A stretch of 48,912 nt of DNA. It comes from an uncultured Faecalibacterium sp. Its GTDB lineage: Bacteria > Bacillota > Clostridia > Oscillospirales > Ruminococcaceae. The stretch lies in NCBI GenBank assembly GCA_944386015.1, contig CALWZK010000082.1, positions 1 to 48,912 of the forward strand, in the 5' to 3' direction. The translations under genes and the position numbers were made by a program. The notes under the pieces are model-generated. The model saw only the letters and a program-made list of their open reading frames with translations. It made no database searches and was not told the DNA's origin. Below are positions 36,375 to 42,720 of this stretch, in pieces. Numbering within the stretch: the stretch's first letter is position 1; each line of letters starts with the position of its first letter.

Positions 36375-37394
36375 TCAGCAGTGGCCAAAGCCGCAGTTGG
36401 GCCAGGTACAGGTGGCGCAGCCCTGGCACAGACCGCCCTCACCCAGACGGGCAATGTCATCGGCTGTGATGGGATCATCCGCCAGCAGCCGGGGCAGCAG
36501 CAGGTCGAAAATGGTCCGCTTGGCGTACATCACACAGCCAGGCAGGCCGCAGACAGGCACACCATCCAGATAGCTCACCAGGAACATGGCGCCCGGCAGC
36601 ACCGGTGCGCCGTAGGTGACAATCTCGGCGCCGGTGTTTCGGATGGCCAGCGGGGTCCGGTCGTCCGGGTCCACGCTCATGCCGCCGGTGGTGAAGATCA
36701 TCTCGCAGCCCGCTGCCCTGGCCTCCAGAATGGCGGCCGTGATGCCGGCGGGATCGTCGTCGCAGATCTTGTGGAAGGTCATTTTACAGCCGTACTCCCC
36801 CAGCTTGTCCACCAGAATCGGGGTAAACTTGTCCTCAATCCGGCCCTTGAACACCTCGCTGCCGGTGGTAATCACGCCGCATTTCTTGGTGTGGAAGGGC
36901 AGAACATTCAGGATCGGCTCGGGGCCGGCAGCCGCCTGCATGGCATCCATCTTCTCCTGCTCGATCACCAGCGGAATGATGCGGGTACCCGCCAGCTTCT
37001 GCCCCTTCTTGACCGGCATGTCACCGTGGATGGTGGCAATCATCATCTGCGGGGTGCGGTTGACCGCCAGCAGGGCGTCCCGGCGGATTTTCAGCAGACC
37101 GTCGCAGTCTGCAATCAGCTCGATTTTCCCTTCCCTGGGCTCGGTGCCGTGGATGTTCCGGCCGGCGGCAGCCCGGTACAGCAGCGCCGCCGCTTCATCT
37201 TCGTGCAGGATGCCGGGCTTTTTCTCCCAGACGTAGAGGTTCTCTTTGCCAATGCTCAGCAGAACCGGGATGTCCTCGGGCTGGATGATATGGCCCTTGC
37301 GAAACCGGGCGCCCTTGAACTCGCCGGGGATGATCTGGGTGATATCGTGGCAGAGCACCTGGCCTGCCGCGTCTACGGTACGGATCAGTTTCAT
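36375..37394 (-). CDS. MoeA-like molybdopterin-binding protein with Cys-rich tail
   Basis: A 339-residue protein with a MoCF (MoeA/MogA-type) domain: [23 protein letters not shown] and [22 protein letters not shown] (about residues 172-275). The N-terminal part ([34 protein letters not shown]) replaces the usual MoeA domains. The last 20 residues are Cys-rich, [17 protein letters not shown], with five cysteines in a possible metal or Fe-S site. Such proteins are common next to Moco genes in Clostridia, but their exact step is not known. ATG with AGGAG 11 bases upstream. Confidence 0.8.
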
Positions 37395-37917: not shown

Positions 37918-39156
37918 TCACTGTACAAAGGAAAGAACCTCCACTTGTTCACCAGGCTGCACCGGGCCGCTGCCCGCAGGCAGCTCCACCAGACAGTTAC
38001 AGCCAATCATGGCAGCCAGGCTGCCCGAAGAATGGACTTCTGCGTTTCCCTCCCCGGGAATGGCCACTGCCCCGCCTTCTGCTTTGGCCCGCAGGAAGCG
38101 GGTGCCCTTGCTGGACTTGGAAAAGCCCGTGGTCAGGGTACGGGTGGTGCGGGGCAGGATGCATTCCTCTTCCCTGCGCCCGGCCGCCCGCAGCAGCGCC
38201 GGGACTGCATACTGTTCCAGGGTGGCAGCAGCTGCAAAGGGATTGCCCGACAGACCGAATACCAGTTTGTCGCCCATCCGGGCGGCCACCATGGGGCTGC
38301 CGGGTTTCTGGGCCACGCCGGCGAAGAGAATCCGGGCCTGCAGCCCTTCCAGCACCGCCGGCAGATAATCCTTCTGCCCCACCGACACGCCGCCGCTGGT
38401 AATCACTGCGTCGCAGCGGGACAGCAGATCCTGGATCCGGCGGGAAATCAGCTCCGGGTCATCCGAGCAGTGCTGCCGCTCCACCTGAAATCCCAGCTGC
38501 GCCAGCCGGGCGGCGTTCTGGACCCCGTTGGCATCATAAATCTTGCCGGGCGCCCATGTTTCCCCCAAAGCCAGCAGTTCGCTGCCGGTGGCCAGCACCC
38601 CTACCCGCAGGGAGCGGAAGACCGGCACTTCTGCATAGCCCTGGCCCGCCAGCACCCCCAGATGGGCCGGGGTCAAGACTTCCCCTTCCCGGGCAATGAC
38701 GGCGCCGGCGGCGATATCTTCACCCCGGAACACCACATTCTGGTTTGGACGGAGGCTGGCATAAATCTGTACCGTCTCCTCACCGCCGTCGCTCAGCTCC
38801 TGCATCAAAACGCAGTCGGCGCCTTCAGGCAGCGGGGCCCCGGTCATAATCCGGGCGGCACAGCCCGCAGGCAAAACCGCCGCAGGTGCATCCCCGGCAT
38901 AGAGCTTCATTACCACCGGCAGGGAGACCGGGTGCTCCCTGTCCGCCCCTGTGGTATCCGCACTATGAAGGGCATAGCCGTCCAGAGGGCTGCGGTTGAA
39001 GGGCGGCTGATCCATCCGGGCGCAGAGGGGCCGGGCCGCTATCCGGCCCCAGGCTTCTTCCAGGGGGACATATTCCACGGCCGGCCTGGGCAGGGCCGAC
39101 GCTGCCTCCAGAACGCAGCGCAGCGCCTCGGCGGGCGCGCAAAAAGGCTGTTTCAT
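37918..39156 (-). CDS. moeA: Molybdopterin molybdenumtransferase
   Basis: Inserts molybdate or tungstate into adenylated molybdopterin. A 412-residue protein of normal domain order: domain I/II with ARMDQPPFNRSPLDGYALHS and AARIMTGAPLPEGADCVLMQE, domain III with VGVLATGSELLALGE, ITSGGVSVGQKDYL and FGLSGNPFAAAATLEQYAVPALL, then domain IV. The ATG at 39156 is set by GGAGG 8 bases upstream. First gene of the cofactor/transport operon; the leader RNA upstream probably controls it. Confidence 0.93.
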   Translation of the reverse strand: MKQPFCAPAEALRCVLEAASALPRPAVEYVPLEEAWGRIAARPLCARMDQPPFNRSPLDGYALHSADTTGADREHPVSLPVVMKLYAGDAPAAVLPAGCAARIMTGAPLPEGADCVLMQELSDGGEETVQIYASLRPNQNVVFRGEDIAAGAVIAREGEVLTPAHLGVLAGQGYAEVPVFRSLRVGVLATGSELLALGETWAPGKIYDANGVQNAARLAQLGFQVERQHCSDDPELISRRIQDLLSRCDAVITSGGVSVGQKDYLPAVLEGLQARILFAGVAQKPGSPMVAARMGDKLVFGLSGNPFAAAATLEQYAVPALLRAAGRREEECILPRTTRTLTTGFSKSSKGTRFLRAKAEGGAVAIPGEGNAEVHSSGSLAAMIGCNCLVELPAGSGPVQPGEQVEVLSFVQ

Positions 39157-39173
39157 CCAAAGATCCTCCAAAG

Positions 39174-39221
39174 CCCCGGGCGGTGCAGTTCTGCTATGGC
39201 TCAGATGCACCTGGCCCGGGG
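39174..39221 (-). promoter_or_regulatory. Extended hairpin beside the moeA ribosome binding site
   Basis: Arms CCCCGGGC/GCCCGGGG (39174-39181 with 39214-39221) stacked on GGTGCA/TGCACC (39182-39187 with 39206-39211). It ends about 8 bases before the moeA GGAGG, downstream of the leader terminator, so it may affect translation start. Confidence 0.55.
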
Positions 39222-39253
39222 AGATTCTGTTCTTCTCTTCAATCGGCAGGTTT

Positions 39254-39298
39254 AAAAAAAGCGGAGACGTTTTGACTTGAAAATCAAAACGCCTCCGC
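39254..39298 (-). terminator. Strong terminator in the leader of the moeA operon
   Basis: 15-base stem GCGGAGgCGTTTTGA/TCAAAACGtCTCCGC followed by seven T on the minus strand, about 100 bases before moeA. Its 5' arm overlaps a sequence that can pair with the upstream RNA. Confidence 0.85.
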
Positions 39299-39463
39299 AG
39301 AAGATCCCCAGCATTCCCGGCAAAAGGACAGTTTGCAGCCTGCCACGCCGGTGGACTCTGTCCGCCGGCAGCCGCCCTTGCAGCGGCGGCTGATCCTTCT
39401 GGCCAGGTCCTTGTGTGGGATGGGAGGAGTTCTTTTTTTCAAATTGCAGCGTTTCTTCTGCGG
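39295..39463 (-). ncRNA. Candidate Moco/Tuco-type riboswitch
   Basis: On the minus strand a 10-base helix, CCGCAGAAGA (39454-39463) with TCTTCTGCGG (39295-39304), closes about 170 bases. Inside lie GAAGGATC with GATCTTC, CAGCCGCC/GGCGGCTG (39369-39392), CCGGCGGAC/GTCCaCCGG (39348-39368) and a GGCA/TGCC arm. The GCGG of the closing helix is also part of the terminator stem that follows, so the two folds exclude each other. Size, layout and position before a Moco operon match the Moco RNA class. I cannot verify the conserved aptamer bases from memory, so the class name is an inference; another RNA family is possible. Confidence 0.5.
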
Positions 39464-39613
39464 GAAGGCGGCCGGGTTTCCCCTTCCACCCTTGAATGCC
39501 TGCCTGTGTCCAGGCCTCCGGCATTGCGGCGCGGCGTCCTGCTCCCGCCGGGGAGTTTAGACGCCTTTGCTCAAAGAAGCTCTTTTACCCTGATTCAGTT
39601 GTACTGTATTGGT

Positions 39614-40537
39614 TTAGTCGCAGAAATCATCCACGTCGCTGATGGCTTTGGCATAGCGCCGGGTCAGATACTGGGTGGAGAAGAGGAACCGCTCTTTCCG
39701 GTTATTGGTCAGCTCCTCGATGTCGGAAAATTCCGGCCGGCTCTGCACCGTCTTCCAGGTCTGCTCCACCGTTTCCATGGGCAGATTATAGGGCGAACGG
39801 CAGAAATACCGCATCGGCGTTGCGCTGGGATAAATGCGGGCATTGAACCGCACCATCTCTGCCATCATGGTGCAGAGATCCTGGTCCTCGATGAGCTGGG
39901 CAATCATGGCGTAGTTGTCGCTCATGTTGGCGTTAGAGTAATAATAGGTATCTTTGGCGCCGGTGCGGGACACAATGTCGGTGCACTGCGGGTCTTCCGG
40001 CATCTCAGCCAGAAGCTGTTCTGCGTTCTCCACCTCGCTCACCAGCAGGGCACGGGGGGTGACCAGCGCAGCCGCAGAGCGGGAGCGGATGTAGCCCGCC
40101 AGCTCCTGGGCCGGGGTCATCTCGGGCAGTTCCGGCGCCGTCACGGTGGGCTGATCTGCAAAGGGATCGTTGGCTGCCTCCGGGGCGGAGGCCAGGAAGT
40201 CCAGCAAATCCTGCTTGCCTTCCGGGCCTGCAGCGGCTTCCGGGCCCGGCCCGGCCGGGGCGCCGGACGCGGCCGCCTGCTTTGCAGCAAGGGCGGCAGT
40301 CTCCTTCTCCACCGCTGCGATGACATCCTCTCCTGTCTTGGCGGCGCTGCCATCAAACATACTGCCGGTTTCCTTCAGGCGGCGGGCCGTCTCGCTGGCG
40401 GCATCCATATCAAAAACCTCTGCTTTGGGTTTCTTCTTGGCTGCCATCTCTGCTTTCTGCAGGTCCAGAATCACCTGCTCCGGGTCCGAGCCGTCCACCG
40501 TGGTGGTGTAACCGGGTTTACGTCTGCCAAACAACAT
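39614..40537 (-). CDS. ydhW: YdhW-like protein of the aldehyde-oxidoreductase cluster
   Basis: A 307-residue soluble protein with a low-complexity Ala/Pro/Glu-rich middle (about 85-140) and a conserved C-terminal domain (YYYSNANMSDNYAMIAQLIEDQDLCTMMAEMVRFN...MRYFCRSPYNLPMETVEQTW). This domain resembles YdhW of the E. coli ydhYVWXUT operon. Its role there is unknown, but it accompanies YdhV and YdhY, as here. ATG with GAGG 8 bases upstream; 29 bases after ydhV. There is no Fe-S or metal motif; a chaperone or assembly role is conceivable only from context. Confidence 0.7.
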   Translation of the reverse strand: MLFGRRKPGYTTTVDGSDPEQVILDLQKAEMAAKKKPKAEVFDMDAASETARRLKETGSMFDGSAAKTGEDVIAAVEKETAALAAKQAAASGAPAGPGPEAAAGPEGKQDLLDFLASAPEAANDPFADQPTVTAPELPEMTPAQELAGYIRSRSAAALVTPRALLVSEVENAEQLLAEMPEDPQCTDIVSRTGAKDTYYYSNANMSDNYAMIAQLIEDQDLCTMMAEMVRFNARIYPSATPMRYFCRSPYNLPMETVEQTWKTVQSRPEFSDIEELTNNRKERFLFSTQYLTRRYAKAISDVDDFCD

Positions 40538-40566: not shown

Positions 40567-42720
40567 TTATTCAGCAGCTGCCGTCTGGCTGTAGATGCCG
40601 TGGGCCTCCAGATCGTCGGCCATATCCGACAGGCCGAACTTCTCCAGGGTCTCACGGGTGGGCACGCCAGTGGTCTTGTCCCAGCCGTAGACCTCGTAGA
40701 ACATATCCTTGGCCTTCTCCATGTCCTCGCGGTCCAGCTTGGTGGTGCCCTCTTCAAAGGCCTTGAAGTCAGGCTCCTTGTCGAAGACCCAGTCGCAGAT
40801 GGCGTCGTGCTCCTGACGCAGGTTGGCGCTGCCGCAGTTCAGCTGGTAGCTGATGGCGGTCATGGCCCGGAGCATCTGGGTGATCTTCTCGCCGGTCTCC
40901 TGCAGGCCAGCCTGGGTATAGGTCTCGCCGGTGACGGCGGTCATAAAGTCGGCCTGCAGGTCCAGGTCGCCCTTGTAATTGCGCTCCTTGGAGGGAGACT
41001 GGGTCATGGGCCACATCCAGTTGCACAGGGTGGCGGAATCGTGGAAGTTCTTGTCGTTGACGCAGTAGGCAGCCAGCTTGACCTTGTTCTCGTTGATGGG
41101 CGTGTAAGCCTTGGCCTTGTCGTAGCAGCCCTCGCCGAAGAAGTCTTCCATGACCTTCTTGGTCACCTCATAGGGTGCGCCGGAACCGGTCTCGCAGACA
41201 ATCTCGTGGATCATGCAGTCACGGTTGAAAACCAGATTATACAGCATGCCCACCTGCCATGCCTCAGCAGGGCCGTGGTGGTTGGGATAGCCGTTGTACA
41301 TCAGGTTGGAGTTGGTGGCGCTGTCGTCGCGGTCCAGCCAGCTCTTGGGCAGGCCGAACTTTTCCATCATGGCCAGGGTGCCCTTGCCGATGACGGACAG
41401 GTCGCCCTCGCCGTATGCCATCCGCCGGATCAGTTCCACTTCCCAGCGGGGATCGCCGGCCTTGCACCACTCCCAGGGCAGAGAATCATATTCCTCAGCG
41501 CTGATGTACTTCAGAGCTTCGTCGCGGGACAGGTTCAGGAACCACTGCAGGTCACGGTTCAGGTTGCCGTAGTTATCCCACAGACCCATATCGTCCACGG
41601 CGTGGGACCAGGCCAGGTTGATGACCAGCTTGGCGTCGCCCTCGTACTTGAAGTCGTGGAGGCCATACGGGTAAACGCGGTCGCCGTACAGAACCGGCAT
41701 GCAGGTGTTGGAGTTGTGGGTGGGCAGGTCATAATCGGCCAGGGGGTCGATGTCGTACTCAGTGTAGCAGCGGATGGGGCAGGAAGAGCAGCCGCCCTGT
41801 TTGACGGTGTACTCTGCAGCCGGTGCGCCGAAGTCAAAGTAGCCCTTGAAGCAGCGCAGGGCGATCTTGTTGATATCGTTGTAGGGCTGCTCGCCGGTAT
41901 CCACGGGGCCGCCGGGGGCCTTTTTCCACATACGGCCCGGAGCACCAGCCCAGCGGTTGTTGCCGGAAGTGGCGCTGTACTCAGCCCAGCTCTGGGGCTG
42001 TGCGGGAACGTTGTGGTTGTTGTTGCCGCCAATCAGGTTGCCCAGCATGTAGTTGCACAGTTCCAGAACCTTCTTGGGGTCTGCAACCTTGACGCTGCCG
42101 GTGCCGCGGACCACAATGCCCTTCAGCTTCTTGTTGCCCAGGGCAGCGCCCAGACCGGCGCCGGCCGAGTTGCCAAAGCTGGTGTTCATGGTGGAGTAAT
42201 CCACCAGATTCTCGCCTGCAGGGCCGATGGCTGCGGACTCAAACTCGCGGCCGTTCTGCTCGATCATCCACTTGTTGGAAGCAAAGGTACCCTTGCCCCA
42301 GATCTCGGACGCGTCCTCCAGAGAGACATTGTCGTCCTCGATCCGCAGGTAGACGGGCTTTTCGGAAATGCCGGAAATCACGATGCCGTCATAACCGGCA
42401 TACTTCAGCATGGGGCCGATGTGGCCGCCGATGTGGCCGTCGATGATGGATTTGCCCTTGGACCAGGTGGACCGGAAGGTCACGTTCATACGGCCGGAGC
42501 AGGGCACGCCGGAACCGGTCAGAGGACCGACGCCGAAGATGACCAGAGCCTTCTCATCGTAGGGGTCCAGGTCCATCGGGGCTTCGTCGTACATAATGCG
42601 GTAGGCCATGCCCATACCGCCGATGTATTCATGGTATTGGGTATCGTCTTCGGTGGTGATTTCACCGGTGGTCAGGTTGACGCGCAGGATCTTGCCTGCC
42701 CAGCCATAAGTATCAGCCAT
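40567..42720 (-). CDS. ydhV: Aldehyde:ferredoxin oxidoreductase-family enzyme (YdhV-like)
   Basis: A 717-residue AOR-family protein that should carry a tungsten or molybdenum bis-pyranopterin and one [4Fe-4S] cluster. The N-terminal AOR domain (GWAGKILRVNLTTGEIT, IGGMGMAYRI, GPLTGSGVPCSGRMNVTFRSTWSKG, GHIGGHIGPMLKYAGYDGIVISG) binds the cofactor. The cluster ligands are C311, C314 and C318 (CSSCPIRC), with a fourth Cys in HDSATLCNW matching the D-x3-L-C motif. It belongs to the YdhV branch rather than archaeal AOR; the physiological substrate is unknown. ATG with AGGAGG 7 bases upstream. Confidence 0.88.
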   Translation of the reverse strand: MADTYGWAGKILRVNLTTGEITTEDDTQYHEYIGGMGMAYRIMYDEAPMDLDPYDEKALVIFGVGPLTGSGVPCSGRMNVTFRSTWSKGKSIIDGHIGGHIGPMLKYAGYDGIVISGISEKPVYLRIEDDNVSLEDASEIWGKGTFASNKWMIEQNGREFESAAIGPAGENLVDYSTMNTSFGNSAGAGLGAALGNKKLKGIVVRGTGSVKVADPKKVLELCNYMLGNLIGGNNNHNVPAQPQSWAEYSATSGNNRWAGAPGRMWKKAPGGPVDTGEQPYNDINKIALRCFKGYFDFGAPAAEYTVKQGGCSSCPIRCYTEYDIDPLADYDLPTHNSNTCMPVLYGDRVYPYGLHDFKYEGDAKLVINLAWSHAVDDMGLWDNYGNLNRDLQWFLNLSRDEALKYISAEEYDSLPWEWCKAGDPRWEVELIRRMAYGEGDLSVIGKGTLAMMEKFGLPKSWLDRDDSATNSNLMYNGYPNHHGPAEAWQVGMLYNLVFNRDCMIHEIVCETGSGAPYEVTKKVMEDFFGEGCYDKAKAYTPINENKVKLAAYCVNDKNFHDSATLCNWMWPMTQSPSKERNYKGDLDLQADFMTAVTGETYTQAGLQETGEKITQMLRAMTAISYQLNCGSANLRQEHDAICDWVFDKEPDFKAFEEGTTKLDREDMEKAKDMFYEVYGWDKTTGVPTRETLEKFGLSDMADDLEAHGIYSQTAAAE

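Follow-up and report, generated by a model that had tools for sequence, protein, structure and literature searches.

A probable Moco-class riboswitch of atypical, enlarged form that lies between the oxidoreductase and Moco operons of Faecalibacterium

What does the long leader between an oxidoreductase operon and a cofactor operon of Faecalibacterium sense, and how does it act on the genes behind it? We addressed this question in the window, by which we mean the whole 48,912-nucleotide stretch that was analysed (an uncultured Faecalibacterium sp., contig CALWZK010000082.1 of assembly GCA_944386015.1), and in related genomes. The leader lies on the minus strand, bounded by the stop codon of a ydhW-like gene (39616-39614) and the ATG of moeA at 39156. 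It carries a new, enlarged and atypical variant of RF01055, a class of RNAs known to sense cofactor, and is probably a Moco-class riboswitch that works as an OFF switch via transcription attenuation. In the open-licence literature no paper was found that pairs Faecalibacterium with a riboswitch and molybdenum.

A sequence-only reading of this DNA had placed the leader between a tungsten/molybdenum oxidoreductase cluster and a moeA-mobB-moaC-moaA-modABC operon, and had proposed a Moco or Tuco riboswitch. Pfam and NCBIfam assignments agree with the operon, which in full runs moeA, mobB, a MoCF-domain protein, moaC, moaA, a MOSC-MoCF protein, modA, modB and modC; Mo-related genes for Moco synthesis and molybdate transport, the context of RF01055, are thus found downstream. 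The upstream placement also holds, as a YdhV-like AFOR-family oxidoreductase and the ydhW-like gene precede the leader, and an FMN-binding protein is encoded in the same cluster. NF007354 (PRK09849), the family model matched by the oxidoreductase (Table 1), is one that we take to represent E. coli YdhV.

Table 1. Positions of the leader, its elements and the adjoining genes in the window
Feature	Position	Strand	Basis or remark
Leader RNA	39613-39157	-	From behind the ydhW-like gene to the base before the moeA ATG
Putative Moco-class aptamer, P1 to P1	39427..39582	-	RF01055; boundaries redrawn from invariant P1 strands
P1 5' strand GAGCUUCUUU (GAG-c-UUCUUU)	39573..39582	-	Invariant in 13/13 orthologs
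P1 3' strand AAAGAACUC	39427..39435	-	Also part of one putative antiterminator
P3 stem, AAUGC/GCAUU and variable apical hairpin	39495..39525	-	Seen in 13/13 orthologs
P4 with GAAA tetraloop (39480-39477)	39467..39490	-	GGG-GAAA-CCC kept in 13/13 orthologs
Inserted hairpin GCAG-AAGAAACG-CUGC	39446..39461	-	Invariant in 13/13 orthologs
10-bp helix (candidate antiterminator), 5' arm CCGCAGAAGA	39454..39463	-	Perfect 10 bp
10-bp helix (candidate antiterminator), 3' arm UCUUCUGCGG	39295..39304	-	Overlaps terminator base; GCGG common to terminator stem
Second putative antiterminator, 5' strand AAAAAAAGAACUCCUCC	39423..39439	-	Partner 39296-39280; duplex -18.4 kcal/mol
Middle domain, two CUGCAA-loop hairpins (loops 39383-39378, 39338-39333)	39299..39424	-	Stems covary, loops conserved in 13 orthologs
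Intrinsic terminator with T-run (stem 39298-39261)	39254..39298	-	17-bp stem, then T7
CCUGCC just 3' of terminator	39245..39250	-	Can pair with GGAGG of moeA ribosome-binding site
Post-terminator hairpin, loop AGCCAUAG inside 39205-39190	39174..39221	-	Stem covaries; GCCAUAG loop invariant
moeA ribosome-binding site GGAGGA	39164..39169	-	Sequence; invariant in 13/13 orthologs
moeA, first gene of the operon probably gated	37918..39156	-	Pfam MoeA_N, MoCF_biosynth, MoeA_C
ydhW-like gene	39614..40537	-	NF007411 (YdhW family) 123.1 bits, below the cut-off of 203
YdhV-like AFOR-family oxidoreductase	40567..42720	-	AFOR_N/AFOR_C; NF007354 (PRK09849) 861.5 bits, cut-off 868

No RNA family reached its Rfam gathering threshold anywhere in the window. 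A permissive search revealed a match to RF01055 (Moco RNA) at 39588-39434, covering the entire model (positions 1-135) with 30.6 bits, short of the gathering score of 36 bits, and with E-values of 2.6e-5 on 581 bases and 0.0022 on the entire window. The covariance-model search that had been suggested for 39250-39470 thus points to the right family, but the aptamer (39582-39427) lies mostly upstream of that stretch, which is mostly expression platform. The match is the best to RF01055 in its genome, the next ones scoring 23.2, 20.7 and 13.2 bits; across 61 genomes, 20 match at an E-value of 1 and 8 reach the cut-off or more. A tblastn search with the window proteins identified 13 of these places, the window's included, as one locus with the order ydhW - RNA - moeA. 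The 12 syntenic Faecalibacterium orthologs score 29.2-39.5 bits, five at or above the gathering score (36-39.5) and seven below it (29.2-35.7). Furthermore, ydhW is present in 13 of 31 genomes of the genus, exactly those carrying the RNA, and a 27-base exact pattern from an invariant block was matched by 7 stretches across the collection of genomes, each with Faecalibacterium in its title. That the leader contains a Moco-class (RF01055) aptamer is therefore well supported, and the Rfam threshold overlooks most such RNAs, as 8 of the 13, including that of the window, score under it.

The aptamer has the P1-P4 arrangement of the known Moco RNA, together with the GAAA tetraloop, P3, GAGC and UUUGAAAA-type core stretches and the position before moe/mod genes; the portions available of the description of that class (PMC2408646) also mention some members with a downstream terminator. 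All 13 RNAs show a P1-closed junction with P2 and P4 and a GNRA tetraloop on P4, and P1 is found in the unconstrained MFE structure of every one of the 13 aptamers. P2 shows a C-G/U-A exchange among the orthologs and a mismatch in 4/13 (L012, L014, L015 and L017). Unlike the known class, the Faecalibacterium RNA has a hairpin inserted before the P1 3' strand, and the tetraloop-receptor site expected in P2 is non-consensus, with a receptor-like loop of UAAA opposite CA plus 1-2 bases in 12/13 (L019 differs). Further additions are a roughly 125-nt middle domain, which contains the two CUGCAA hairpins, and a conserved hairpin past the terminator. Comparison by eye with L005 and L006, where no hairpin was seen at the insertion site, suggests that cmscan set the P1 3' strand too early because of the hairpin inserted before the UUUGAAAA stretch. 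Judged from the sequences, the inserted hairpin and the altered tetraloop receptor probably explain the low RF01055 scores.

The hairpins and the strong terminator that had been read in the leader are borne out, and none of 100 shuffles folds as well as the 427 nt of leader tested (z -5.0). A 10-base helix with arms about 150 bases apart, also noticed earlier, is real, its arms (39463-39454 with 39304-39295) being separated by 149 bases. It had been taken for the closing helix, but that role falls to P1 (39582-39573 with 39435-39427), with which it competes in the manner of an antiterminator. On its own the helix is not significant, as a perfect helix of at least 10 bp with arms at least 100 bases apart occurs in 22 of 300 dinucleotide shuffles. 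It gains weight because the pairing is conserved, 9 or 10 of the 10 positions being pairable (G-U counted) in 13/13 orthologs, although something other than this pairing may also keep the two strands constant; in the window, 3 and 1 of 1000 shuffles show complementarity as good in this region. We consider it a candidate antiterminator, conserved in sequence and predicted to be incompatible with both P1 and the terminator.

A second possible antiterminator would pair AGAACUCCUCC, which includes the P1 3' strand, with GGAGGCGUUUU. The 10-bp helix crosses P1 in nesting and the second helix shares its 3' strand. Complementarity as good as that of the second helix was found in 3 and 2 of 500 shuffles for the window, whereas the orthologs L012 and L016 showed no clear excess over shuffles (55 and 175, and 68 and 62, of 500). 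Outside the genus, 15 non-orthologous RNAs were scored (L006 and L081 could not be parsed), and three of these, L064, L066 and L068, had such a pairing at the 1% level or better.

The GCGG common to the 10-bp helix and the terminator stem had been read as giving mutually exclusive folds, and this is supported by the computed ensembles, which are equilibrium computations with neither ligand nor kinetics. In the finished aptamer the probability of P1 is 0.96-0.97 in 13/13. Adding the terminator's GCGG lowers it to 0.25 or less in 7/13 (0.0 in the window); it persists at 0.88 in L009 and 0.79 in L011, and before this addition it was already 0.42 in L009 and L012. At the intermediate stage the 10-bp helix reaches a probability of 1.0 in the window, against 0.11-0.97 among the 12 orthologs; three of them show only 0.11-0.16, and in L013, L014, L015 and L017 the second helix takes over (0.52-0.84). 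With the complete terminator, the terminator itself is at 0.95-0.99 and P1 at 0.62-0.96 in all 13 leaders, cut at the terminator end.

On these models attenuation is the likely mechanism. When the cofactor is plentiful, the aptamer (39582-39427) would close P1, the terminator (39298-39261) would form and RNA polymerase would stop before moeA. When it is absent, P1 would give way as the 5' arm of the terminator emerges, CCGCAGAAGA:UCUUCUGCGG or AGAACUCCUCC:GGAGGCGUUUU would pair and sequester this arm, and the genes from moeA to modABC would be transcribed. The middle domain, situated between the antiterminator strands, probably brings these strands together.

P1 starts 27-32 bases past the ydhW stop codon in 13/13 orthologs (31 bases in the window). 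In the 120 nt that run up to a point 10 nt inside the aptamer, the best -35/-10 promoter matches score 6-8 of 12, which is inside the background of 520 random stretches from the same loci (most score 6-7, up to 10), and a sigma-70 scan of 38900-39900 returned no promoters. A promoter of the leader's own was rejected on these grounds. From the short spacing and the lack of a promoter above background we infer read-through, and the RNA probably gates transcription that leaves the oxidoreductase operon and continues into the cofactor genes. In such an arrangement of enzyme operon, cofactor-sensing attenuator and cofactor genes, the supply of cofactor would be adjusted behind its user. Two candidate leader peptides were also rejected, as the frame at 39524-39252 (90 aa) ranges from 5 to 104 aa and a TTG frame at 39442 from 14 to 94 aa across the 13 leaders.

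Moco is the probable ligand. It is a better fit than Tuco in view of the P3 stem, the YdhV-like enzyme, the ModABC transporter and the lack of any TupB match, so that the earlier proposal of a Moco/Tuco riboswitch with a terminator is supported in its Moco form and less favoured in its Tuco form. According to the part of Regulski et al. 2008 (PMC2408646) consulted here, RNAs that contain P3 are associated with Moco genes, and those lacking it largely with Tuco genes. The AAUGC/GCAUU stem and an apical stem occur in all 13 Faecalibacterium RNAs, and the absence of P3 typical of the Tuco type was thus not observed.

It is unlikely that the RNA senses the tungsten cofactor (Tuco) instead, although it does adjoin an AFOR-family enzyme, and enzymes of class V, to judge from sections of a 2026 classification (PMC13328260), can be tungsten enzymes, as in C. 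somerae, where W was preferred. A third point in favour of tungsten is G027 (L054, L006), in which a YdhV-like AFOR (47% identical) is combined with a single strong Moco RNA that is P3-less and located before modB; enzyme type alone therefore does not fix the metal. These points are countered by the presence of P3 in 13/13, by E. coli YdhV, which prefers Mo in the sections seen of three papers (PMC9103625; PMC12096430; PMC13328260), by ModA and ModB, which are above their NCBIfam cut-offs, and by TupB, matched in none of the 13 Faecalibacterium genomes with the unit at E 1e-10, which is weak evidence. The same sections of the classification describe a similar cluster for class V of gut Clostridia, with Faecalibacterium named, and read two MoeA copies as a sign of both cofactors; besides moeA, the window encodes a shorter protein with a MoCF domain (36375-37394), which by Pfam is not a full MoeA, and the number of copies decides nothing here. 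They treat the metal of class V AFOR-family enzymes as an open question (PMC13328260). If the RNA does sense Moco, the metal of such an enzyme in a common gut commensal could be predicted from an RNA switch.

AFOR matches were found in 25 of 36 genomes with Moco-class RNAs, the 13 Faecalibacterium enzymes scoring 112-122 bits and most others 206-472. At E 1e-10, TupB is matched in 11 of these 36 genomes, none at the model cut-off, and also in 9 of 14 control genomes. Beyond the 13 genomes, the presence or absence of P3 was read at 25 loci (a tally that leaves out the unparsed loci L064, L067, L007 and L083 and matches without loci); 9 have it and 16 do not, some of the 16 by eye. Among genomes in which all RNAs read bear P3 (n=7), one has an AFOR and one a TupB-like match, and among those in which all RNAs read lack it (n=11) the counts are 8 and 7. 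Many P3-less RNAs of the panel occur alongside AFORs and TupB-like permeases. G249 has RNAs of both kinds. The P3-less, putative Tuco RNAs L005, L070 and L071, from the same order, have a common core with the Faecalibacterium RNA and similar operons but no P3, and L005 also lacks the inserted hairpin (by eye).

Comparison of the orthologs for covariation, as had been advised, gave a divided result. Besides the exchange in P2, the middle and post-terminator hairpins covary, whereas in the P1 and antiterminator 5' strands no position varies, so that they cannot reveal covariation inside the genus. The consensus folds that RNAalifold derived from MAFFT alignments were weak (-5.75 and -7.24 kcal/mol), and the stems were therefore compared outward from their loops. 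When arms were re-dealt 20000 times among species, pairing as good as that of the true arms arose 0 times for middle hairpin 1 (10 distinct pairs of arms), 110 times for middle hairpin 2 (13 distinct pairs) and 7 times for the post-terminator hairpin (11 distinct pairs), counts that ignore relatedness. Of the 26 hexaloops in the middle domains, 25 have the sequence CUGCAA and one CUGCAG; their self-complementary UGCA might allow kissing interactions. CUGCAA occurs three times in the leader, at 39449-39444 in the 3' arm of the inserted hairpin and in the two hairpin loops. A reading of these loops as ANTAR-type hexaloops was rejected, as they do not follow the ANTAR rule.

Past the terminator, the models allow a possible translational layer through masking of the ribosome-binding site. 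Control that is mainly or also translational, in which CCUG(C/U)C pairs with the moeA GGAGG around the GCCAUAG-loop hairpin and a reader of the loop opens or closes this structure, seems to us improbable. CCUGYC:GGAGG is pairable in 13/13 and is included in the -5.75 kcal/mol RNAalifold consensus, and the mean unpaired probability of GGAGGA is at most 0.5 in 12/13 (0.34 in the window). The hairpin motif YCYGRGCCATAGCRGR is found once in each of the 13 unit-bearing genomes and in 0 of the 97 others among 110 searched, with the reversed pattern as a control matching 2/110. However, the computed probability of the CCUG(C/U)C:GGAGG helix spans 0.01-0.91 among the 13 (0.54 in the window) and is at least 0.3 in only 5/13, the helix is short and nearly invariant and so shows no covariation, and a strong terminator with antiterminators precedes it. 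By eye, the GCCAUAG loop was also considered as a partner of the ribosome-binding site, but as only CCA:UGG stays constant we do not claim this pairing. Transcription attenuation thus remains our preferred reading. A bolder extension of it is a two-layer device, in which the Moco aptamer and terminator are joined by a second input for another ligand or a protein, formed by the middle domain and the ribosome-binding-site mask of the GCCAUAG hairpin and linked to this particular unit of enzyme and cofactor genes, and in which P3 reports that the class V enzyme is a molybdoenzyme; we put this forward tentatively and think it rather less than likely.

A leader that serves only to terminate the oxidoreductase operon, its aptamer having degenerated and lost the ability to switch, is very improbable, for although the RF01055 score is under the gathering threshold and the terminator is the computed default in 13/13 leaders, long invariant blocks run through aptamer and expression platform in 13 genomes whose flanks diverge, and conserved loops sit on covarying stems.

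The oxidoreductase genes, the RNA and its moeA seem to come and go together as a module. Six genomes of the genus have moaC and no AFOR match, and none of six exact leader motif strings was found in six stretches (7.8-14.5 kb) from them. In L058, L059 and L060 (G010, G028 and G030) the operon is present from mobB on, with no moeA ortholog within the stretch examined. As a separate observation, a MoCoBD_1 (xanthine-dehydrogenase-like) protein was matched in 26 of 31 genomes of the genus and MoaC in 20 of 31. Three of these genomes, G021, G019 and G004 (93-99% complete), have the MoCoBD_1 protein and no MoaC match; perhaps they possess a Moco enzyme but do not make Moco themselves, or the protein is a relative that needs no cofactor.

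In G300, which represents another genus of the family, a Moco RNA that contains P3 and has a hairpin inserted lies at L103:8295-8465 (G300:C63). This RNA (L082) resembles that of Faecalibacterium in having P3, a terminator and an insertion at the same site, but the hairpin is a different one, the sequence is unrelated, and no CUGCAA or GCCAUAG was seen by eye in 300 bases. Its insertion is complementary to the stretch before the terminator, with 59 and 14 of 1000 shuffles as good. A molybdopterin oxidoreductase/Fer4 pair immediately precedes this RNA, and frames with ABC_cobalt, Oxidored_molyb and MobA-like domains follow it. Elsewhere in the same order, several Moco RNAs have an operon-internal position, with a MOSC/MoCF gene on one side and modA on the other (L072, L078, L087, L088 and L089).
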